This document shows, one piece after another, positions 14,740 through 21,723 of a stretch of DNA of 35,380 bases. Source of the stretch: a virus; the IMG/VR virus record IMGVR_UViG_3300044701_002204, positions 1 through 35,380 of that record; one strand, 5' to 3'. The translations under genes were made by a program, and so were the position numbers. How positions within the stretch are numbered: the first letter of the stretch is position 1; each line of letters starts with the position of its first letter. The notes beneath the pieces were generated by a model that worked only from the letters and a program-made list of their open reading frames with translations, was not told where the DNA came from and ran no database searches.

Positions 14740-15591
14740 ATGGATATAGCTCAGACAATCACTGATCGAATCATCAGCGAACTAGAGCAAGGCACTGCGC
14801 CTTGGGTTAAACCTTGGCATGAGGATGCTGAGTCATACAATCCTGTTTCAGGCACTGTATATCGCGGCATGAATCAGTTATGGCTCAGCATGATGAGCCT
14901 TGGTCGTTCAAATGCTTGGCTCACGTTTAAGCAAGCTAGCGATGCAGGCTTGAATGTTCGCAAGGGTTCTAAAGGCGTTCCAATCATCTTCTGGAAGCAA
15001 TTATCAATCAGCAAGAAAGATGATTTAGGCAATGACGTAAACGCCACAATTCCAATGCTTAAGCATTATTTTGTATTCAATGCTGACGACATCGAAGGCG
15101 CAACATTCTCAAAAGGCTCAGGCAGGCTTGAAGGTTCTATCGATTCTAGAGTGCAGGCAGTCGTTGATAGGCTTGCTCTTGATGGTGGAGTGCAGCAAGC
15201 AAGCGGAGCGTTCTATCAGGCAAGCAAGGACTGTATCGGTATGCCTGAACTAAGTAGCTTTCGATCGCTTGCTGACTATCACGCCACATTGCTACATGAG
15301 TGCGTTCATGCTACTGGCGCAAAAACAAGGCTTGATCGTCAACTCATGAATCGCTTTGGCTCGGAAGCATATGCCTTTGAAGAGTTAATTGCGGAACTAG
15401 GCGCAGCAATGCTTTGCATGAAAACTGGCGTTGATGGTCAGCTGCAACATGCGAGCTATATCGAATCTTGGCTCAAAGTCTTAAAGCAAGATAAAAACGC
15501 CATCATCAAAGCAGCAAGTAAGGCTCAGGCAGCAATGGACTACTTGATTGATACCAAAGTAGCGGAAGAACAAATGCCATTGGCAGCATGA
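14740..15591 (+). CDS. ardC: ArdC-type antirestriction protein, 283 aa
   Basis: The N-terminal ssDNA-binding ArdC_N-type domain (about residues 1-115) includes GTAPWVKPW, YRGMNQLWL and KGSKGVPIIFWK. The C-terminal zincin-like domain has the metal motif HECVH at 186-190, followed by ATG, and a downstream FEELIAEL (about 213-220) that may supply the third ligand. The length is as expected. Family members protect incoming DNA from restriction enzymes, and those on plasmids have been linked to ssDNA binding. Its early position fits a protein made soon after DNA entry. AGGAATAAACATC precedes the ATG. Confidence 0.9.
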   Translation: MDIAQTITDRIISELEQGTAPWVKPWHEDAESYNPVSGTVYRGMNQLWLSMMSLGRSNAWLTFKQASDAGLNVRKGSKGVPIIFWKQLSISKKDDLGNDVNATIPMLKHYFVFNADDIEGATFSKGSGRLEGSIDSRVQAVVDRLALDGGVQQASGAFYQASKDCIGMPELSSFRSLADYHATLLHECVHATGAKTRLDRQLMNRFGSEAYAFEELIAELGAAMLCMKTGVDGQLQHASYIESWLKVLKQDKNAIIKAASKAQAAMDYLIDTKVAEEQMPLAA

Positions 15592-15600
15592 TTTCAGCTT

Positions 15601-15626
15601 ATAGCCGATTAGCAATAGTCGGCTAT
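15601..15626. other. Hairpin after ardC
   Basis: ATAGCCGA (15601-15608) pairs perfectly with TCGGCTAT (15619-15626) across a 10-base loop, starting 9 bp after the ardC stop. There is no T-tract. It is probably an mRNA 3'-end or processing structure rather than a strong terminator. Confidence 0.5.
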
Positions 15627-15667
15627 GGGATGCAATCAGCATCAATTAACCATTGGAGATAAACATC

Positions 15668-15850
15668 ATGAGAAAAGATATTGAATTGTCTACAGGCCGG
15701 ATTGTTTCGCATAGACCGTACTTATCCAATGGCGAGCCTAATGGAGCCACAGAAGCCTTCATCCTTGGGGGGCATGAAATGACCAATGAAGAGTGGCTCG
15801 AATACGTATCAATCATTCACAGCCCAAGGGATGAACCATGCAAAGCCTAA
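15668..15850 (+). CDS. Small hypothetical protein, 60 aa
   Basis: Begins MRKDIELSTGRIVSHRPY and has an acidic helical part (MTNEEWLEYVSIIHSP). GGAGA lies 8 bases before the ATG at 15668; an in-frame TTG at 15653 lies just before that site and is not favoured. No family is recognised. It lies between ardC and other small early genes, which in phages often act on host functions. Confidence 0.65.
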   Translation: MRKDIELSTGRIVSHRPYLSNGEPNGATEAFILGGHEMTNEEWLEYVSIIHSPRDEPCKA

Positions 15851-15915
15851 TCGATTGGAGCATAGCCGTTCTATTCGGCATTGCCTTTGCTGTAACCGTG
15901 TTTTTTAACCTATAG
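15838..15915 (+). CDS. Micro-ORF for a single transmembrane helix, 25 aa
   Basis: Starts with MQSLIDWSIAVLFGIAFAV and is almost entirely a hydrophobic helix. AAGGG lies 7 bases before the ATG, inside the end of the preceding gene, and the reading frame fills the gap to the next ribosome-binding site. It could be a small membrane effector. Its short length makes it uncertain. Confidence 0.45.
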   Translation: MQSLIDWSIAVLFGIAFAVTVFFNL

Positions 15916-15924
15916 GACAACATT

Positions 15925-16194
15925 ATGAGCATTACATACCGACTTTGCATGAAGCTAGCTAACGTCCATCAACCATGGTTCACCAATTCAAACGAGCAAA
16001 AGCAAATGCAACCATGGCGAATCAAACAACGCGAAAGGCTTGCCGACTCATTGTTCCAAGCTACATGGCGAGCCGACAAAGGCGCTAACTGGCAAGCGCA
16101 TCAAGCGGACATCATGCTCACTGCGAATCTAGCATCACTCATTCGCCAAGACATGGCACCAGCAGCCGCCCTTGAATACTTAGGCTTGCTCTAA
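15925..16194 (+). CDS. Hypothetical early protein, 89 aa
   Basis: Tryptophan- and glutamine-rich, mostly helical (LADSLFQATWRADKGANWQA), with no membrane segment. AGGA precedes the ATG. No known family is seen. It belongs to the run of small early genes after ardC. Confidence 0.65.
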   Translation: MSITYRLCMKLANVHQPWFTNSNEQKQMQPWRIKQRERLADSLFQATWRADKGANWQAHQADIMLTANLASLIRQDMAPAAALEYLGLL

Positions 16195-16213
16195 CCCATC
16201 ACAATGCCCCTAG

Positions 16214-16235
16214 AAGCCTTTAAACGGGCTTTTAC
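16214..16235 (+). terminator. Weak intrinsic-terminator-like hairpin
   Basis: AAGCC (16214-16218) pairs with GGCTT (16227-16231) across 8 bases, followed by TTTACGGGCTTTTCTT. The stem is short and the T-run is broken, so partial termination or attenuation between the early genes is the most that can be claimed. Confidence 0.35.
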
Positions 16236-16268
16236 GGGCTTTTCTTACCTTTACTGGAGCCAACCTAC

Positions 16269-16469
16269 ATGGAAGATAGACAAGTCCCTTCCTGGCTCGA
16301 TTTAATCGACCATCAAATTGCAACCGATAAATGGTTCCGGCCGGTCGATCAAGTCTGGCGTGAACACGGATGGAAACCACCATCGACTGAATGCCCAGAG
16401 ACAATGCGAAAGCACAAAGCCTTCCGCACCTGGTCGCATTACGCACCCTCGCGGGAGACCCAAGCATGA
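16269..16469 (+). CDS. Hypothetical early protein, 66 aa
   Basis: Rich in Trp, His and Pro (VPSWLDLIDHQIATDKW, then HGWKPPSTECPETMRKH), probably a small globular fold. TGGAG lies 9 bases before the ATG. The stop overlaps the next start as ATGA, so the two are translationally coupled. Function unknown. Confidence 0.65.
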   Translation: MEDRQVPSWLDLIDHQIATDKWFRPVDQVWREHGWKPPSTECPETMRKHKAFRTWSHYAPSRETQA

Positions 16470-16741
16470 AAGAAAGCCTAACCATTAAAGCCGATGAACT
16501 GCTGATCGAGCACTATGAAAAGCAAGTCAAAGAGATGGATGATGATCAGATGAACTCGACCCTGATCTATCACACAGCAATTAAGTTGTATGAAGAGACA
16601 CTTTTTCGAGTGTGTGGCTATGAAAGCCTTATGAAGTTAGCCACTGAAGCAGATAAACGTATTGAGAAAGAATTTGGCAAGAAAAGGTTCGGATTTGCTG
16701 AAGGTGTTCATGAAAACTTCCAACACAGGGCAAGCAAATGA
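16466..16741 (+). CDS. Hypothetical helical protein, 91 aa
   Basis: Begins MKESLTIKADELLIEHYEK and is acidic and helical throughout, with KEMDDDQMNSTLIYHTAIKL. The start at 16466 overlaps the preceding stop as ATGA. A longer frame from 16391 would run fully inside that gene and is not favoured. No family recognised. Confidence 0.65.
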   Translation: MKESLTIKADELLIEHYEKQVKEMDDDQMNSTLIYHTAIKLYEETLFRVCGYESLMKLATEADKRIEKEFGKKRFGFAEGVHENFQHRASK

Positions 16742-16926
16742 GTAAGAAGCAATTAAAAGACATTGAGACGCAAGCGATGATCGATAAGTGGCAGGAGGAA
16801 CTGGCAAGACATGTTGCCTATCTCCCCATCCTATGCGAGCAGGCAGGGGTTGATGAGATGGAACTGCATCGAGCTATTGAGATTCACTTCTATGTTCGCA
16901 GTATGAGTAAGGGGGCTATGCAATGA
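16738..16926 (+). CDS. Hypothetical protein, 62 aa
   Basis: Short helical protein (IETQAMIDKWQEELARHVAY, then VDEMELHRAIEIHFYVRS). It overlaps both neighbours by ATGA, so it is part of a coupled string of four genes. Function unknown. Confidence 0.65.
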   Translation: MSKKQLKDIETQAMIDKWQEELARHVAYLPILCEQAGVDEMELHRAIEIHFYVRSMSKGAMQ

Positions 16927-17171
16927 ACAAAGAAACCATGCGTTTAGTACTTGACGTAAACATGAACGAAGAACGTGTCGATGAAACGGCAAAACAAGAA
17001 CATGACTTAGCCAGAGTCGGGGAGGTCGGCGTATGGGGCGAATGGGTTGGGCTGACTGATGATGTTGTGTTTGAGCTAGCAGACACAAACCTTTATGAAA
17101 ACGGTAAGAATTTTGGTGTGCTGGCGTTCGCTAAAGCGATTGAGCAAGCCTTGAAGGAGAAGAACACATGA
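16923..17171 (+). CDS. Hypothetical protein, 82 aa
   Basis: Acidic N-terminal half (MNEERVDETAKQEHDLARVG) and a compact C-terminal half with WGEWVGLTDDVVFELAD and a helix. It overlaps both flanking genes as ATGA. No recognised family. Confidence 0.65.
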   Translation: MNKETMRLVLDVNMNEERVDETAKQEHDLARVGEVGVWGEWVGLTDDVVFELADTNLYENGKNFGVLAFAKAIEQALKEKNT

Positions 17172-17347
17172 GAAAGCTACTCAACCGGCTGGCAAGCACC
17201 AATGACTTTGTGATGATTCACTCTAGTGAACTGGAAGCAATCCTGGACTATGTGGAAGACATGGAGCAAAGGATAAGCATTGTCAGAGAGCAGTTGCAGT
17301 ATCTGGTTGCAGAATCTGTAGAACCTGGTGCAGAACCAGAGGTTTAA
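17168..17347 (+). CDS. Small helical / coiled-coil protein, 59 aa
   Basis: Begins MRKLLNRLASTNDFVMIHSS and has a heptad-like part (YVEDMEQRISIVREQLQYLV). It starts within the end of the preceding gene (ATGA) with a GGAGA site upstream. It is the last gene before the non-coding stretch at 17348-17871. Function unknown. Confidence 0.65.
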   Translation: MRKLLNRLASTNDFVMIHSSELEAILDYVEDMEQRISIVREQLQYLVAESVEPGAEPEV

Positions 17348-17560
17348 CCCCTCTTTCCTCCCAAAGACCCCCCTACCCCAAACAAGAACGGGGTAGAGAG
17401 GGGAGGTTCCTCCGCTGCAAGCAGCATCTCGATGTCAGTTTCCTGACCCCTCGGCTTCGAGATAAGACCAGCCGCGCCGGTTATTCGGGAACTGCCCCCT
17501 AGTCCTAAGACATACGGCGTACCACCTCAACTCCGAGCCACCATGGTAAGTGCCTACTAT
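17348..17560. ncRNA. Structured non-coding segment (candidate RNA element)
   Basis: There is no credible gene. CTACCCC (17373-17379) pairs with GGGGTAG (17390-17396), flanked by CCTCCC (17357-17362) and GGGAGG (17401-17406). ATCTCGA (17426-17432) pairs with TCGAGAT (17457-17463) and encloses GTCAG-TTTC-CTGAC (17434-17447). Several perfect nested stems in about 120 bp suggest a folded RNA or regulatory DNA. The strand is unclear because the pairings are symmetrical. It may be the 3' end of the first rightward transcript or a separate small RNA. Confidence 0.45.
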
Positions 17561-17586
17561 CGTGCGGAGTACGGCTGTCGGACTGG

Positions 17587-17663
17587 AAAACAAAAAAGCC
17601 ACTTACTGCTGCTCCTGGTCGTTGTCCCTCTGGGGTAAGAGGGCAGAAGCATGAGTAAGTGGC
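17587..17663 (-). terminator. Minus-strand hairpin with T-tract (terminator-like, inside a rightward block)
   Basis: GCCACTTACT and AGTAAGTGGC (17654-17663 and 17598-17607) form a perfect 10-bp stem. On the minus strand it is followed at once by six T, a G and four T (17597-17587). The 46-base loop contains a second hairpin, CCCTCT/AGAGGG. This is the look of an intrinsic terminator or the 3' end of a small RNA on the strand opposite to the surrounding genes. It implies leftward transcription here. Confidence 0.5.
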
Positions 17664-17673
17664 CTTCAGATTG

Positions 17674-17704
17674 TTGACAACGACGACAACAAGCGAATCT
17701 TAAT
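17674..17704 (+). promoter_or_regulatory. Candidate rightward promoter with perfect -35 box
   Basis: TTGACA at 17674-17679 is followed by a weak -10 (CTTAAT at 17699-17704, spacing 19, four of six matches). It sits within the inverted repeat TTGTTG...CAACAA and next to the GGCAAA array, which would lie at the start of the transcript. The non-ideal spacing suggests a regulated or false promoter. Confidence 0.3.
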
Positions 17705-17782
17705 GGCAAACATCTTTTGATGCAAGCGGCAAAAAAGCGGCAAAAAAGCGGCAAATCTGGCAAATCTGGCAAACCATTTGCC
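17705..17782. repeat. GGCAAA iteron-like array
   Basis: GGCAAA occurs on the plus strand at 17705, 17728, 17739, 17750, 17759 and 17768, and once inverted (TTTGCC, 17777-17782). The last direct copy and the inverted copy form a perfect 6-bp palindrome with a 3-base loop. Copies two to four sit in an 11-bp repeat GCGGCAAAAAA and the rest in a 9-bp repeat, so most face the same side of the helix. Repeats like this act as iterons of replication origins or as operator arrays; both are open here. Confidence 0.75.
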
Positions 17783-17808
17783 AACCCGACGAACGGTTGA
17801 TTATTAGC

Positions 17809-17837
17809 TATGTACATATGTTCCTAGTGTGTATAAT
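17809..17837 (+). promoter_or_regulatory. Promoter with consensus -10 and a 10-bp palindrome upstream
   Basis: A perfect TATAAT lies at 17832-17837, 34 bp before the ATG at 17872. No good -35 box is at the right distance, but the palindrome TATGTACATA (17809-17818) occupies that place, so an activator- or repressor-controlled promoter is plausible. It would drive the recombination genes. Confidence 0.5.
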
Positions 17838-17871
17838 CACTATCGTTGTACTTAACCAAAGGAGAAACAAC

Positions 17872-18129
17872 ATGGATGATTACAAGTTATGTAGGTTGAT
17901 CGAATCGGATTTGTTTGATCTTAGGCTCAAAGGAGTTCGTGTCCTTGAAGCTGCCGCCAGCATGCACCGTGTGATTGCAGGTGAATGGCCTTACTTGTCA
18001 CGTTACCAGGTCAAAGTTCTTGAAAATGTTTTCAATGAGGCAGAAGAACTCAAGCACATGCTCAATGTCATCAAGAACCGTGACGCTGTTAAAGACATCA
18101 GCACTTGCTTTGATGAGGAGGCGGCATGA
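17872..18129 (+). CDS. Hypothetical helical protein, first of the recombination operon, 85 aa
   Basis: Begins MDDYKLCRLIESDLF and is helical and amphipathic (VKVLENVFNEAEELKHMLN). AAAGGAG lies 8 bases before the ATG, one of the strongest in the block. A longer hydrophobic frame from 17797 would start before the -10 box and is not used. Function unknown; a regulator of the operon is possible by position. Confidence 0.7.
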   Translation: MDDYKLCRLIESDLFDLRLKGVRVLEAAASMHRVIAGEWPYLSRYQVKVLENVFNEAEELKHMLNVIKNRDAVKDISTCFDEEAA

Positions 18130-18479
18130 TTCCAGAGATCGTAAAACGCACTATTGCTCAGGCAATTAAGTTGCTTGACGCATGTGGTTGCAAATACAAG
18201 GTCATTGATCAGGATGGCAATGAGTATGGCGTACTCACTGTCTCTGAGCCAAAGAAGGCAAGCAAGTCTTACAAGCACCCACCAGGAACGATGTATAGGT
18301 TCTATTACCCGTTTATCAAAGACATGCAACCTGGCGATGTTGTTGTTATTAAGAACTTTGATTTTGAACCAAGAGCGTTGCAAGGTGCGGTGACTGCATG
18401 GGCCTCTGAGCACTGGGGAAAGGGTTCTTACAAAACCTGCATGGTTGGCCCTGATATTGAAATTCTTCGTTGTTCTTAG
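18126..18479 (+). CDS. Hypothetical protein with HTH-like C-terminal half, 117 aa
   Basis: The N-terminal part is mixed alpha/beta (IKLLDACGCKYKVIDQDGN). The C-terminal part (LQGAVTAWASEHWGKGSYKT) resembles small phage proteins in which a helix-turn-helix follows a PGDVV-type beta hairpin. It overlaps its upstream neighbour as ATGA. Such proteins might bind DNA in operon control, but this is a guess from shape. Confidence 0.65.
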   Translation: MIPEIVKRTIAQAIKLLDACGCKYKVIDQDGNEYGVLTVSEPKKASKSYKHPPGTMYRFYYPFIKDMQPGDVVVIKNFDFEPRALQGAVTAWASEHWGKGSYKTCMVGPDIEILRCS

Positions 18480-18487
18480 GAGGCAGC

Positions 18488-19378
18488 ATGACTAGCTTTG
18501 ATACTGAATCGAGACGCAAGGCGATCTGGGCCACCGATGCTCGCAAGATCGCGGATGGCAAGGCAGCAGATGTTTACTTAGAGAAGATAGGCCAGACAGA
18601 GCGTGAAGACATAAGCCACATTGAAGCAGTGCAATGGGGTTTGAAGTTGCAGGATGTTATTGGCCGTGAGGCTAGCGCCAGGTTGCAGATGGAACTCAAG
18701 GAAGCAGACTATGAGTTGTATCACCCTGAGCATTCATGGATGGCATCTCACTTTGATTTCATCTCTGCTGATGGCACGACACTGGTGGAGGTCAAGAACT
18801 ACAACCAATCTAAACGGAATCAATACGATGCAGATATTGCACTTATGCCTGCGGCCGACAGAGCGCAATGTATTCATGAAGCTACGGTACATCGGGTACA
18901 GCGTATCGTACTTGCGGTGCTCTTTGGGGGGCAAGAACTGGTACTTATCGACACGCAAGTATCAGACGCTGAAAAAGACTCGCTCATACAACTGGAAGCT
19001 GAGTTATGGGGCTCAATACAGGCCAAGCAGCCTCCAAGCGCGACTACGGTGGACGCAGCAAAGAAACTCTACCCAATATCCACTACGGCTGGGGTTCTAG
19101 CTAATGCTCAGTTAGAACAAGCCTGCCAGCAACTGAAAGCGATTAAGGCCAACATCAAACAGTACGAAGAAGCCGAGGAAAAGCTACAAGGCTTTATCCA
19201 AGGGCAGATGAAAGAAGCAGGCTCACTCATCACATTCGATGGGAAGGTGCTTGCAACATGGAACAGTGCTAAAGGCTCCAAACGCTTTGATCCAAAGCTA
19301 CTGCAAGCAGAGATGCCTGAAGTGTATGAGCGTTACGTTATTGAACAACCTGGCTCACGGAGGTTTTTAGTCAAATGA
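18488..19378 (+). CDS. YqaJ / lambda-exonuclease-like recombination nuclease, 296 aa
   Basis: The residue pattern of this PD-(D/E)XK family is visible: a helical lead (RRKAIWATDARKIADG, about 9-24), HFD with D90, then VEVKNY with E101 and K103. A Gln/His-rich helix follows (QCIHEATVHRVQRIVLAVL, about 127-145). The C-terminal third has a coiled-coil segment (QQLKAIKANIKQYEEAEEKL). The enzyme would chew double-stranded ends to expose single strands for the annealing protein encoded next. AGGAGG lies before the ATG at 18488. The stop overlaps the next start as ATGA. Confidence 0.88.
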   Translation: MTSFDTESRRKAIWATDARKIADGKAADVYLEKIGQTEREDISHIEAVQWGLKLQDVIGREASARLQMELKEADYELYHPEHSWMASHFDFISADGTTLVEVKNYNQSKRNQYDADIALMPAADRAQCIHEATVHRVQRIVLAVLFGGQELVLIDTQVSDAEKDSLIQLEAELWGSIQAKQPPSATTVDAAKKLYPISTTAGVLANAQLEQACQQLKAIKANIKQYEEAEEKLQGFIQGQMKEAGSLITFDGKVLATWNSAKGSKRFDPKLLQAEMPEVYERYVIEQPGSRRFLVK

Positions 19379-20223
19379 GCAATCTAGTCGATCCAACCAA
19401 ACTTGATCAGTCAATCATTGATTCAATCGTACTTCGAGGTGACTTGAGTGGACTCAAGGAAGAACAACTCACTGGATACTACAACTACCGCTGCCAGCAA
19501 GTCGGACTCGATCCTTCTGCGAAGCCGTTCGATCTTCTTGTCTTGTCAGGAAAGAAGGTCTTGTATGCGAATGCTGGGGCCACACAGCAACTCTCAAATC
19601 TGCATGGACTGTCCACTGCGATCACTAACAGAGAGAGAGTTGAGAATGTGTATCTTGTATCTGTCCGATGCACTGGCAAAGATGGACGAAGCTCTGAAAA
19701 TCAGGGAGCAGTTGACATCGCAGGTCTTAATGGAGAGAGGCTAGCTAATGCCTTGATGAAGGCTACAACCAAAGCGATACGCAGGACTGTGCTTGCTCAC
19801 TGTGGATTGGGGATGCTTGATGAAACTGAACTCGACACTATCCCGACTAATCAATATCAGAAGGTTGATATGCCGCATGTACAGGCTCTCCAGCCGCTTA
19901 CTGAGGTCATTGAGGGTAAGTTTAAGGTGATGGTTCCTGAAGGCGATAAGAGCAAGGTTTACAGCTCTCACCAGGATGAGATGCAGTGGCAGGACAACTT
20001 CTTTGGTTTGATTGGCAAGATCGCTGACTCGAAGAAGATGACAACTGAGGAGAAGAACGCCAAACTGGCGTCACTCTTTCGGGTCAACCACGAAACCATC
20101 GATAACTTTGGCGGGGTTGCAGCCATTGCATTCAAGAAGCGCTGTCACGATCATGCGGTCGAGGGTTTTATCGCAAAAAAGGTAGTGACTCTGGATGTGG
20201 ACGAAGAGGTAGTGTTCGATTGA
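19375..20223 (+). CDS. Putative ssDNA-annealing recombination protein, 282 aa
   Basis: The segment GLKEEQLTGYYNYRCQQVGL followed by DPSAKPFDLL and KKVLYANAGATQQL is a pattern I know from phage recombination operons. Next come LANALMKATTKAIRRTVLAH and CGLGMLDETE, with the look of RecT/Redbeta-type annealing proteins (assignment by resemblance). The C-terminus is charged. It overlaps the exonuclease gene as ATGA, the classical exonuclease-plus-annealase pairing. It would anneal strands during repair, replication restart or concatemer formation. A distantly related recombination mediator is the alternative. Confidence 0.7.
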   Translation: MSNLVDPTKLDQSIIDSIVLRGDLSGLKEEQLTGYYNYRCQQVGLDPSAKPFDLLVLSGKKVLYANAGATQQLSNLHGLSTAITNRERVENVYLVSVRCTGKDGRSSENQGAVDIAGLNGERLANALMKATTKAIRRTVLAHCGLGMLDETELDTIPTNQYQKVDMPHVQALQPLTEVIEGKFKVMVPEGDKSKVYSSHQDEMQWQDNFFGLIGKIADSKKMTTEEKNAKLASLFRVNHETIDNFGGVAAIAFKKRCHDHAVEGFIAKKVVTLDVDEEVVFD

Positions 20224-20414
20224 CGCAGACGCAGGCAGTGCTTGAGCGTTTGCAACAAGGAACGCTCACGCAACTGCAGGCTTACGCAGAGATTGGTTCA
20301 ACAAGACTTGCAGCCAGAGTCGAAGAACTAAGAAAACAAGGTCACACCATCGTGACACACACCATTAACCGTAATGGCAAATCCTTTGCCGAATATCAAC
20401 TAGTGAGGAAATAA
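20220..20414 (+). CDS. Small helix-turn-helix protein (HTH_39-like), 64 aa
   Basis: TTLxxL-like start (TQTQAVLERLQQGTLTQLQA), then GSTRLAARVEELRKQGHTIV, a winged-helix pattern known from many small phage DNA-binding proteins. The start codon is TTG at 20220, overlapping the previous stop as TTGA with GAGG upstream. It may be a local regulator or a recombination accessory. Confidence 0.75.
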   Translation: MTQTQAVLERLQQGTLTQLQAYAEIGSTRLAARVEELRKQGHTIVTHTINRNGKSFAEYQLVRK

Positions 20415-20674
20415 TGGCTTACGAACAGCAACAAGGCAGTGGAGTACTTTTCACCGTGAAAGAGAAGAAGTCTGAAAAGGCACCCGACTGGTCAGGCAGT
20501 TTTACCTGCGATCAGGCTTACAAACCAGGTGATGTGATCAAACTGTCAGCATGGACGAAACGCAGTGCTTATGGCGATCTGATCTCGATACGGGTGAATA
20601 ACTTTGTACCAGGCCAGATGCCACGCCAGGGACGTGAAGTAAGTTCGCATGACGATGACAGCGTTCCGTTTTGA
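20414..20674 (+). CDS. Small OB-fold/SSB-like protein with acidic DDDSVPF tail, 86 aa
   Basis: Starts MAYEQQQGSGVLFTVKEKK with a short beta-rich middle (WSGSFTCDQAYKPGDVIKLS, then GDLISIRVNNF). It ends in SHDDDSVPF, like the acidic tip by which bacterial SSB recruits partners. Middle sequences of this kind are common beside phage recombination genes. The length is half that of SSB. Single-strand binding and docking to host SSB-partner proteins are inferred. Confidence 0.7.
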   Translation: MAYEQQQGSGVLFTVKEKKSEKAPDWSGSFTCDQAYKPGDVIKLSAWTKRSAYGDLISIRVNNFVPGQMPRQGREVSSHDDDSVPF

Positions 20675-20883
20675 TGCTCTGCCCTAAGTGCGCTGAAAGA
20701 GGTGAACATAACGATACGATCATCCTAGAGACTCGCCGGTATGGTGGCAAGAAACCGGCTAACTCTTGGGTGACACGCAGGCGACGCTGTGTCGCTTGCT
20801 TGCATCGATTCACGACAACGGAAGTCATTAAAGGCGCTAATGACAAAGTATGGGACGCTGCATTGCGCGAGGATATGGCATGA
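20674..20883 (+). CDS. NrdR-like stand-alone zinc ribbon, 69 aa
   Basis: CPKC at residues 3-6 and CVAC at 39-42, preceded by RRRR and followed by HRFTTTEV. This closely matches the N-terminal zinc ribbon of NrdR, the repressor of ribonucleotide reductase operons (RRRxC..C..RFTT). The ATP-cone domain of NrdR is absent. The ATG at 20674 overlaps the preceding stop (TGATG). It may bind NrdR boxes or act as a DNA-binding accessory. Confidence 0.75.
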   Translation: MLCPKCAERGEHNDTIILETRRYGGKKPANSWVTRRRRCVACLHRFTTTEVIKGANDKVWDAALREDMA

Positions 20884-21200
20884 CAAAACTGACAGAATCC
20901 CACATGAAGGTTCTTAAGTATCTTTCCAAGCGAAAGACTGAAGCCACCTTCAAAGACATTCAACTACAAACCATGCTTGGCATACCAACCACCAAGTACG
21001 TCATTCGTGGGCTTCTCCATGATGGTTACATCAAGAAACGATCAGACAGGCTTAATCGCATGACAGAGCGCTACTACACCTTTGCCAGTTGGGAACCGGT
21101 TGAGAGAGTCATCATCAAACGTCCTGTCAAATTCTCTAAGACGCGTATTACGATAGAACCTAAGTTCTTCAACAATCCGTTTAGTGTAGGTGCTTCATGA
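20880..21200 (+). CDS. Winged-helix DNA-binding protein, 106 aa
   Basis: Residues about 5-65 have a helix-turn-helix with wing: LTESHMKVLKYLSKRKTEAT, MLGIPTTKYVIRGLLHDGYI, then KKRSDRL. The C-terminus is basic (IIKRPVKFSKTRI). The ATG at 20880 overlaps the previous stop as ATGA. It could be a transcription regulator of the block, with no family name certain. Confidence 0.75.
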   Translation: MTKLTESHMKVLKYLSKRKTEATFKDIQLQTMLGIPTTKYVIRGLLHDGYIKKRSDRLNRMTERYYTFASWEPVERVIIKRPVKFSKTRITIEPKFFNNPFSVGAS

Positions 21201-21412
21201 GTGAGATGAGCAGGGAAGAGATGCAGGCCAAGATGGAAACACTCTATGCGCTTACCAGAGAGTTACGAGCCATGCTGGCAAGAACTGATCACAAACTCAA
21301 GACAAGAGAAATGTTCATTCATGCCTTGCTCGACCCTGATGCTTTTGGATATGCCGTAGAGAATGCCGTCAGAGAAGAAGCCTGGAAAATCCTGCAAGGA
21401 GAACGCGATTGA
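21197..21412 (+). CDS. Helical hypothetical protein, 71 aa
   Basis: Begins MSEMSREEMQAKMETLYALT and is predicted to be almost all alpha-helix (coiled-coil-like). It overlaps the previous gene as ATGA and supplies the AAGGAG site for the next gene. Function unknown. Confidence 0.65.
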   Translation: MSEMSREEMQAKMETLYALTRELRAMLARTDHKLKTREMFIHALLDPDAFGYAVENAVREEAWKILQGERD

Positions 21413-21723
21413 GCAAGCTAGGAAAGACCAGAGGTGCCAGTTATGAGCGAGAGGTCTGTAATGCCCTCACAGAGCGTTTAGGAACGAAGGTGACGCGTGT
21501 ACTAGGGCAAGCAAGAGATGGCGGCTCAGACATCGATCTAGGGCCGTTTATGATCGAATGCAAGCGTCGTAGGAAGATTGCTCTCTACGAATGGATGGAG
21601 CAAGCCAAGGTTTCGTCCAAAGGCGAGAAAGTACCAGTTGTGATTTGTAGGGCTGATGGCAAAGAGAGTCTAGTGATCTTTAGACTTGACGATGCGATCA
21701 CGCTCATGCAGAATGAATTGTGA
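21409..21723 (+). CDS. Holliday-junction-resolvase-like PD-(D/E)XK nuclease, 104 aa
   Basis: The nuclease pattern is complete: an N-terminal helix with YEREV (E13/E15), GGSDIDLG with D41 and D43, and FMIECKRR with E50 and K52. The helix with YEWMEQA follows. Length and order match small archaeal-Hjc-like and phage resolvases. The start is TTG at 21409, overlapping the previous stop (TTGA) with AAGGAG 8 bases before. It would cut branched recombination or replication intermediates before packaging. It is the last gene of the rightward block. Confidence 0.82.
   Translation: MSKLGKTRGASYEREVCNALTERLGTKVTRVLGQARDGGSDIDLGPFMIECKRRRKIALYEWMEQAKVSSKGEKVPVVICRADGKESLVIFRLDDAITLMQNEL

Follow-up and report, generated by a model that had tools for sequence, protein, structure and literature searches.

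In lambdoid phages, the OOP RNA has an intrinsic terminator at its end. It is 77 nt long and is transcribed from the pO promoter (PMC12197685). The GOLLD and ROOL RNAs are also phage-encoded; they are highly structured, carry kissing loops, have no known function and come mostly from environmental sequence (PMC12286853). Here, we analysed a 35,380-bp stretch of viral DNA (the window), in which the early block is read rightward and the structural genes leftward. A patch of GGCAAA repeats in it had been taken, in a sequence-only reading, for a replication origin or an operator. We favour the operator part of that proposal, since the array lies upstream of a leftward RNA promoter, and not the origin part. 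The repeats probably form an operator or activator control region of this promoter, and the leftward non-coding RNA gene that it would serve almost certainly exists.

The array consists of six GGCAAA copies starting at plus-strand positions 17705, 17728, 17739, 17750, 17759 and 17768 (steps of 23, 11, 11, 9 and 9) and is closed by an inverted copy (TTTGCC) at 17777–17782, with the palindrome TGGCAAACCATTTGCCA. Tandem Repeats Finder resolves it into a period of 11 (2.9 copies, 100%) and a period of 9 (2.7 copies, 100%). The copies, their spacings and the inverted partner had been described exactly, and the arrangement is far from chance: no 6-mer other than GGCAAA reaches at least five copies in 78 bp across the whole window, and even four GGCAAA copies per 78 bp arose in none of 300 mononucleotide shuffles. 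The window contains 39 GGCAAA matches, seven of them in the array, against 29.6 ± 5.6 predicted by shuffling, with no enrichment outside the array in the remaining window. In viral contigs, a triple-GGCAAA pattern has many scattered sites among the matches listed.

The array had been placed in a long non-coding region. No convincing protein gene was found in 17348–17871, but the region encodes a structured RNA on the minus strand, which the sequence-only reading had missed (Table 1). In relatives covering the site, an A-tract is kept beside the array, and after it a long hairpin; on the minus strand, this reads as a stem followed by UUUUUUG, i.e. an intrinsic terminator. A further hairpin lies upstream of the terminator hairpin, and its loop is the complement of an internal loop in the latter. 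In class a, all five distinct loops are perfectly complementary over 9 nt despite sequence change, and in class b/c, the complementarity was matched by none of 5000 shuffles. The pairing of RNA-1 as a whole holds in 99.7% of cells in class a (9 doubly changed pairs) and in 96.9% in class b/c (13 doubly changed pairs), with covariation scores that 0 of 500 shuffles reached in either class. A covariance model (R1) trained on classes b/c only, with the window and class a left out, recovered class a with a single match in each locus, in the minus-strand orientation, the window among them (E=2.5e-11); in some loci, the opposite strand gave mirror matches too, which were much weaker and are what a hairpin should produce. 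An RNA on the plus strand, where the hairpin also folds, was ruled out in favour of the minus strand by the U-tract, the promoters and the wobble counts, many pairs being U·G on the minus strand and A·C if read on the opposite one.

Directly 3' of the RNA-1 terminator lies a second structured module, RNA-2, which would be made by read-through of that terminator. Among 50 dereplicated sequences, its fold has a G·U:A·C ratio of 397:25 on the RNA-1 strand versus 154:157 on the opposite strand, and clear double changes are present in one helix. We claim the strand for type A only, because the strand test was weak or mixed in types B, C and D. A model (R2) built from distant phages, with the window left out, found the window copy (E=3.2e-22), and its matches lay on the RNA-1 strand in nine of nine loci, within a few hundred nucleotides downstream. 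The RNA-2 3' motif occurs in at least 119 viral stretches, and a hairpin with a T-tract precedes 82 of 111 type A copies in a rough test. L134, L151, L160 and L207 carry one more hairpin module (GGAACTAGGTCGGG...CCGACCTAGTTCC, with variants) in the interval from RNA-1 to RNA-2, which shows that the build is modular. A diverged stretch with the RNA-2 3' motif is also found at 669–1038 of a 48.6-kb viral contig (L349, IMGVR_UViG_2585427611_000002), whose name suggests an isolate genome and could point to a cultivable host.

Table 1. Features of the array and the RNA locus, with their positions in the window
Feature	Position	Strand	Basis or remark
RNA-2 (type A), structured module directly 3' of the RNA-1 terminator	17346..17588	-	Strand test; model R2 match 17475-17358
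RNA-1, putative small RNA of ~100 nt: 5' hairpin, kissing loop, terminator hairpin	17589..17691	-	Covariation; model match 17589-17698
Terminator U6 tract, followed by GUUUU	17592..17597	-	T6 invariant in 28 aligned relatives
RNA-1 long hairpin, arms GCCACTTAC / GTAAGTGGC, intrinsic terminator stem	17598..17663	-	Covariation
Kissing strand in internal loop, GACAACGAC on the minus strand	17618..17626	-	Complementarity, covariation
Kissing strand in 5' hairpin loop, GTCGTTGTC on the minus strand	17676..17684	-	Complementarity, covariation
-10 box TAAGAT of the leftward RNA promoter	17697..17702	-	TAAGAT/TACAAT/TACTAT/TATGCT/TATAAT at the same position in relatives
GGCAAA array, six direct copies and one inverted	17705..17782	+	Sequence; copy number varies in relatives
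Weak -35 box TTGCAT, 17-bp spacer	17720..17725	-	TTGACA, TTGCAA, TTTACA or TTGCCA in array-less relatives
Conserved element CCGACGAACGG adjoining the array	17786..17796	+	Comparison of relatives
TTCCTAGTGT, possible operator of the rightward operon	17821..17830	+	One copy, in this orientation, in almost every RecT-clade locus that covers the site
TATAAT, probable -10 of a rightward promoter serving the 17872 gene and the YqaJ/RecT operon	17832..17837	+	No consensus -35

The leftward promoter is of the sigma70 type by sequence. Across 92 distinct phage promoters at a fixed distance from the RNA-1 start, the mean score was 10.0 versus 7.2 after shuffling, and many of them, including divergent members, are TTGACA-16/18-TATAAT-like. 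The −35 and −10 boxes, the structured RNA and the GC stem with its U-tract give the layout of a sigma70-type small RNA gene, as read from sequence and covariation. Copy 1 of the array falls inside the −10/−35 spacer, and copies 2–6 and the inverted copy lie upstream of the −35 box, roughly one helical turn apart; the array is regulatory in position. The mean −35 score was 4.5 in GGCAAA promoters (n=11), 3.1 in GCTCGC promoters (n=10) and 5.2 in array-less ones (n=71), values that ignore kinship and come from a scan that sometimes took a different −10 register in short-array promoters, the gap between GGCAAA and array-less promoters being modest. A poorer −35 in array-bearing promoters is what would be expected if activation comes from the array. 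The −10 type goes with the array type, TAAGAT with GGCAAA and TACAAT with GCTCGC, which gives the cassette the look of a promoter module that can be exchanged. In L126 and L150, the TTGACA −35 upstream of RNA-1 is contained in the loop of a preceding intrinsic terminator (CCCCTGCTTGACAGGGGTCTTTTTTTT), and terminator and promoter thus overlap.

For comparison, 78 viral loci were fetched with the annealase ('RecT') of the window, which is Rad52-like by a sub-threshold Pfam match. In relatives that have the same genes (RecT 91–98% identical), the GGCAAA copies range from six to none, or a GCTCGC-type array is present instead, while flanking blocks are common to the loci covering the site. Six copies are found in the window, L006, L009 and L011, and five, three or one elsewhere; L016 has the inverted copy alone, which indicates that a long array is not required. 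Some relatives carry unrelated GCTCGC/CTAAGG repeats, likewise with direct copies and a terminal inverted copy, and some carry neither array type. Relatives exchange the stretch as a cassette, with a GGCAAA array, a GCTCGC array, or no array and a better −35.

The array could instead serve mainly as an operator for the rightward promoter of the recombination operon. It lies between divergent promoters, upstream of a rightward promoter that has no consensus −35, and the distance of 50–130 bp means that this promoter could be the true target. However, the array cassette changes with the leftward −10, whereas the block of the rightward promoter stays conserved whichever type is present, and we consider such a role unlikely. 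Close to the rightward promoter, the TTCCTAGTGT site, or the palindromes that replace it, suggests a repressor operator; L045, L061 and L429 lack TTCCTAGTGT and have nearby palindromes such as AACACTAG-N4-CTAGTGTT.

An explanation through DNA shape, which seems to us equally unlikely, would dispense with a dedicated repeat-binding protein, phased A-tracts acting as an UP-like element for RNA polymerase. In the GGCAAAAAAGC repeats, A6 tracts recur at 11-bp intervals a short way upstream of the −35, and no phage protein co-varies with the array type: 453 ORF clusters in partial loci yielded no usable family tracking it (lowest p 0.0015, uncorrected). However, GCTCGC-type arrays have the same layout without A-tracts, and the terminal inverted copy suggests a site for a protein or a dimer. 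The sequence-only reading had proposed binding by a small HTH protein of the phage, and the early genes do include, by Pfam, an HTH_39 protein and an NrdR-like zinc ribbon, along with an ArdC-like protein, the YqaJ exonuclease and a PDDEXK nuclease. Neither these two nor the winged-helix protein follows the array type; all three are about equally similar to those of the window in GGCAAA-type and GCTCGC-type phages (for HTH_39, mostly 94–100% in the former and 98–100% in the latter), and therefore the proposed partners do not explain the repeat specificity.

Neutral slippage in the spacer between the two promoters would fit a copy number that runs from six to none and units that are short perfect tandem repeats. 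We find it quite improbable, given that two unrelated arrays independently have direct copies with a final inverted copy and that the inverted TTTGCC persists where the direct copies were lost (L016, L025 and L076).

As iterons of a phage replication origin, the repeats would be bound by an unrecognised initiator. Their 9–11 bp steps adjoin recombination genes (YqaJ exonuclease and Rad52-like annealase), and a leftward RNA close by is reminiscent of OOP/pO in lambda (PMC12197685). No replicase is visible among the early genes, and the earlier remark that initiator, polymerase and helicase are missing was borne out by Pfam, which found no initiator, replicative helicase, primase or polymerase among the early genes scanned (14740–21723). 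However, the array is missing from L018, L004, L017, L035 and others, in which the neighbouring genes are retained. Relatives of this kind had been set in advance as the outcome telling against an origin, and on them the essential-origin reading fails. Repeats of an iteron origin should be conserved with the replicon, and here the array is absent or replaced in relatives. Typical iterons are longer than 6 bp, and the repeat core here is just 6 bp. There is no excess of DnaA boxes (2 found vs 3.9 expected); one DnaA-box-like site near the repeats (17828–17836) overlaps TATAAT, the total being not above chance. Phages that encode a primase-helicase themselves (L134) likewise carry RNA-1, which is present in further gene contexts as well, and the GC-skew check that had been proposed puts the turn near 14–16 kb, where the gene direction changes. 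An iteron origin, rejected on the dispensability of the array and the lack of a DnaA-box excess, is highly improbable, and the suggestion that the array is the control point of phage replication is not favoured either.

Under control of the leftward promoter by the array, the reading we prefer, a DNA-binding protein, probably host-encoded or common to all these phages, would bind the repeats co-operatively and activate or silence the RNA promoter; its action may extend to the divergent rightward promoter.

Exact terminator tails led to further viral contigs, most of which fit R1 (58 matches among 74 loci in one set and more in another). The carriers of RNA-1 include phages without similarity to window proteins, where its neighbours are genes for terminase, the major head protein, Sak/Erf annealases and primase-helicase. 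Two of the carriers encode phosphoadenosine phosphosulfate reductase-like proteins (L178:5282–6112 and L166:10864–11820). In the TerL-related phages L182, L131, L138, L148, L128, L165 and L194, the RNA lies in the ArdC-to-YqaJ interval and is co-directional with the early genes. A cis-antisense role was rejected, as RNA-1 lies between genes and points in different directions in different relatives. Given that both orientation and gene context vary between phages, the RNA probably acts in trans. Rfam 15 gave no gathering-level match for the window and 15 related loci, and a permissive Rfam scan of 17300–17900 gave two chance-level matches only. The RNA is absent from the annotated phage collection, save for two short partial matches in uncultured-phage records; annotated phages contained no DNA relatives of the window beyond weak partial matches and only distant RecT matches. 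In bacterial genomes, nothing was found for the terminase pattern or the RNA pattern (one exact 20-base class-a pattern).

It is conceivable, though on balance somewhat doubtful, that these loci represent a large family of phage RNAs, bipartite and so far undescribed, in which a kissing-loop RNA ends in a terminator that gates read-through into interchangeable structured modules; it would be a mobile, trans-acting and host-directed factor in unrelated aquatic phages, with a promoter retuned by array swaps. With the array as its regulatory end, an unexplained repeat patch becomes part of a gene that can be tested. Many unrelated viral contigs carry this structured phage RNA, which Rfam 15 lacks and whose kissing loop is hypervariable yet self-complementary, and it offers concrete constructs for asking about the roles of structured phage RNAs. 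The swapping of arrays at the promoter shows how the regulation of such RNAs may change from one phage to another.

The array resembles iteron origins and multi-site operators in its phased short direct repeats and inverted copy beside promoters. Unlike these, it is dispensable and replaceable among close relatives, and no cognate initiator or repressor was found. The RNA, like GOLLD and ROOL, is phage-encoded, predicted to be highly structured with a kissing loop, and known largely from environmental sequence. It differs from them in being much shorter (about 100 + 240 nt, where theirs range from roughly 650 to more than 800 nt), in having an internal intrinsic terminator and in the absence of an Rfam match. 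With OOP, it shares a short length, a direction against the rightward early operon, a location near replication or recombination genes and a terminal intrinsic terminator. In contrast to OOP, which is antisense to cII, RNA-1 is intergenic, is co-directional with the early genes in L182, L131, L128 and L165, contains a kissing loop that covaries, and has another structured RNA downstream of it.
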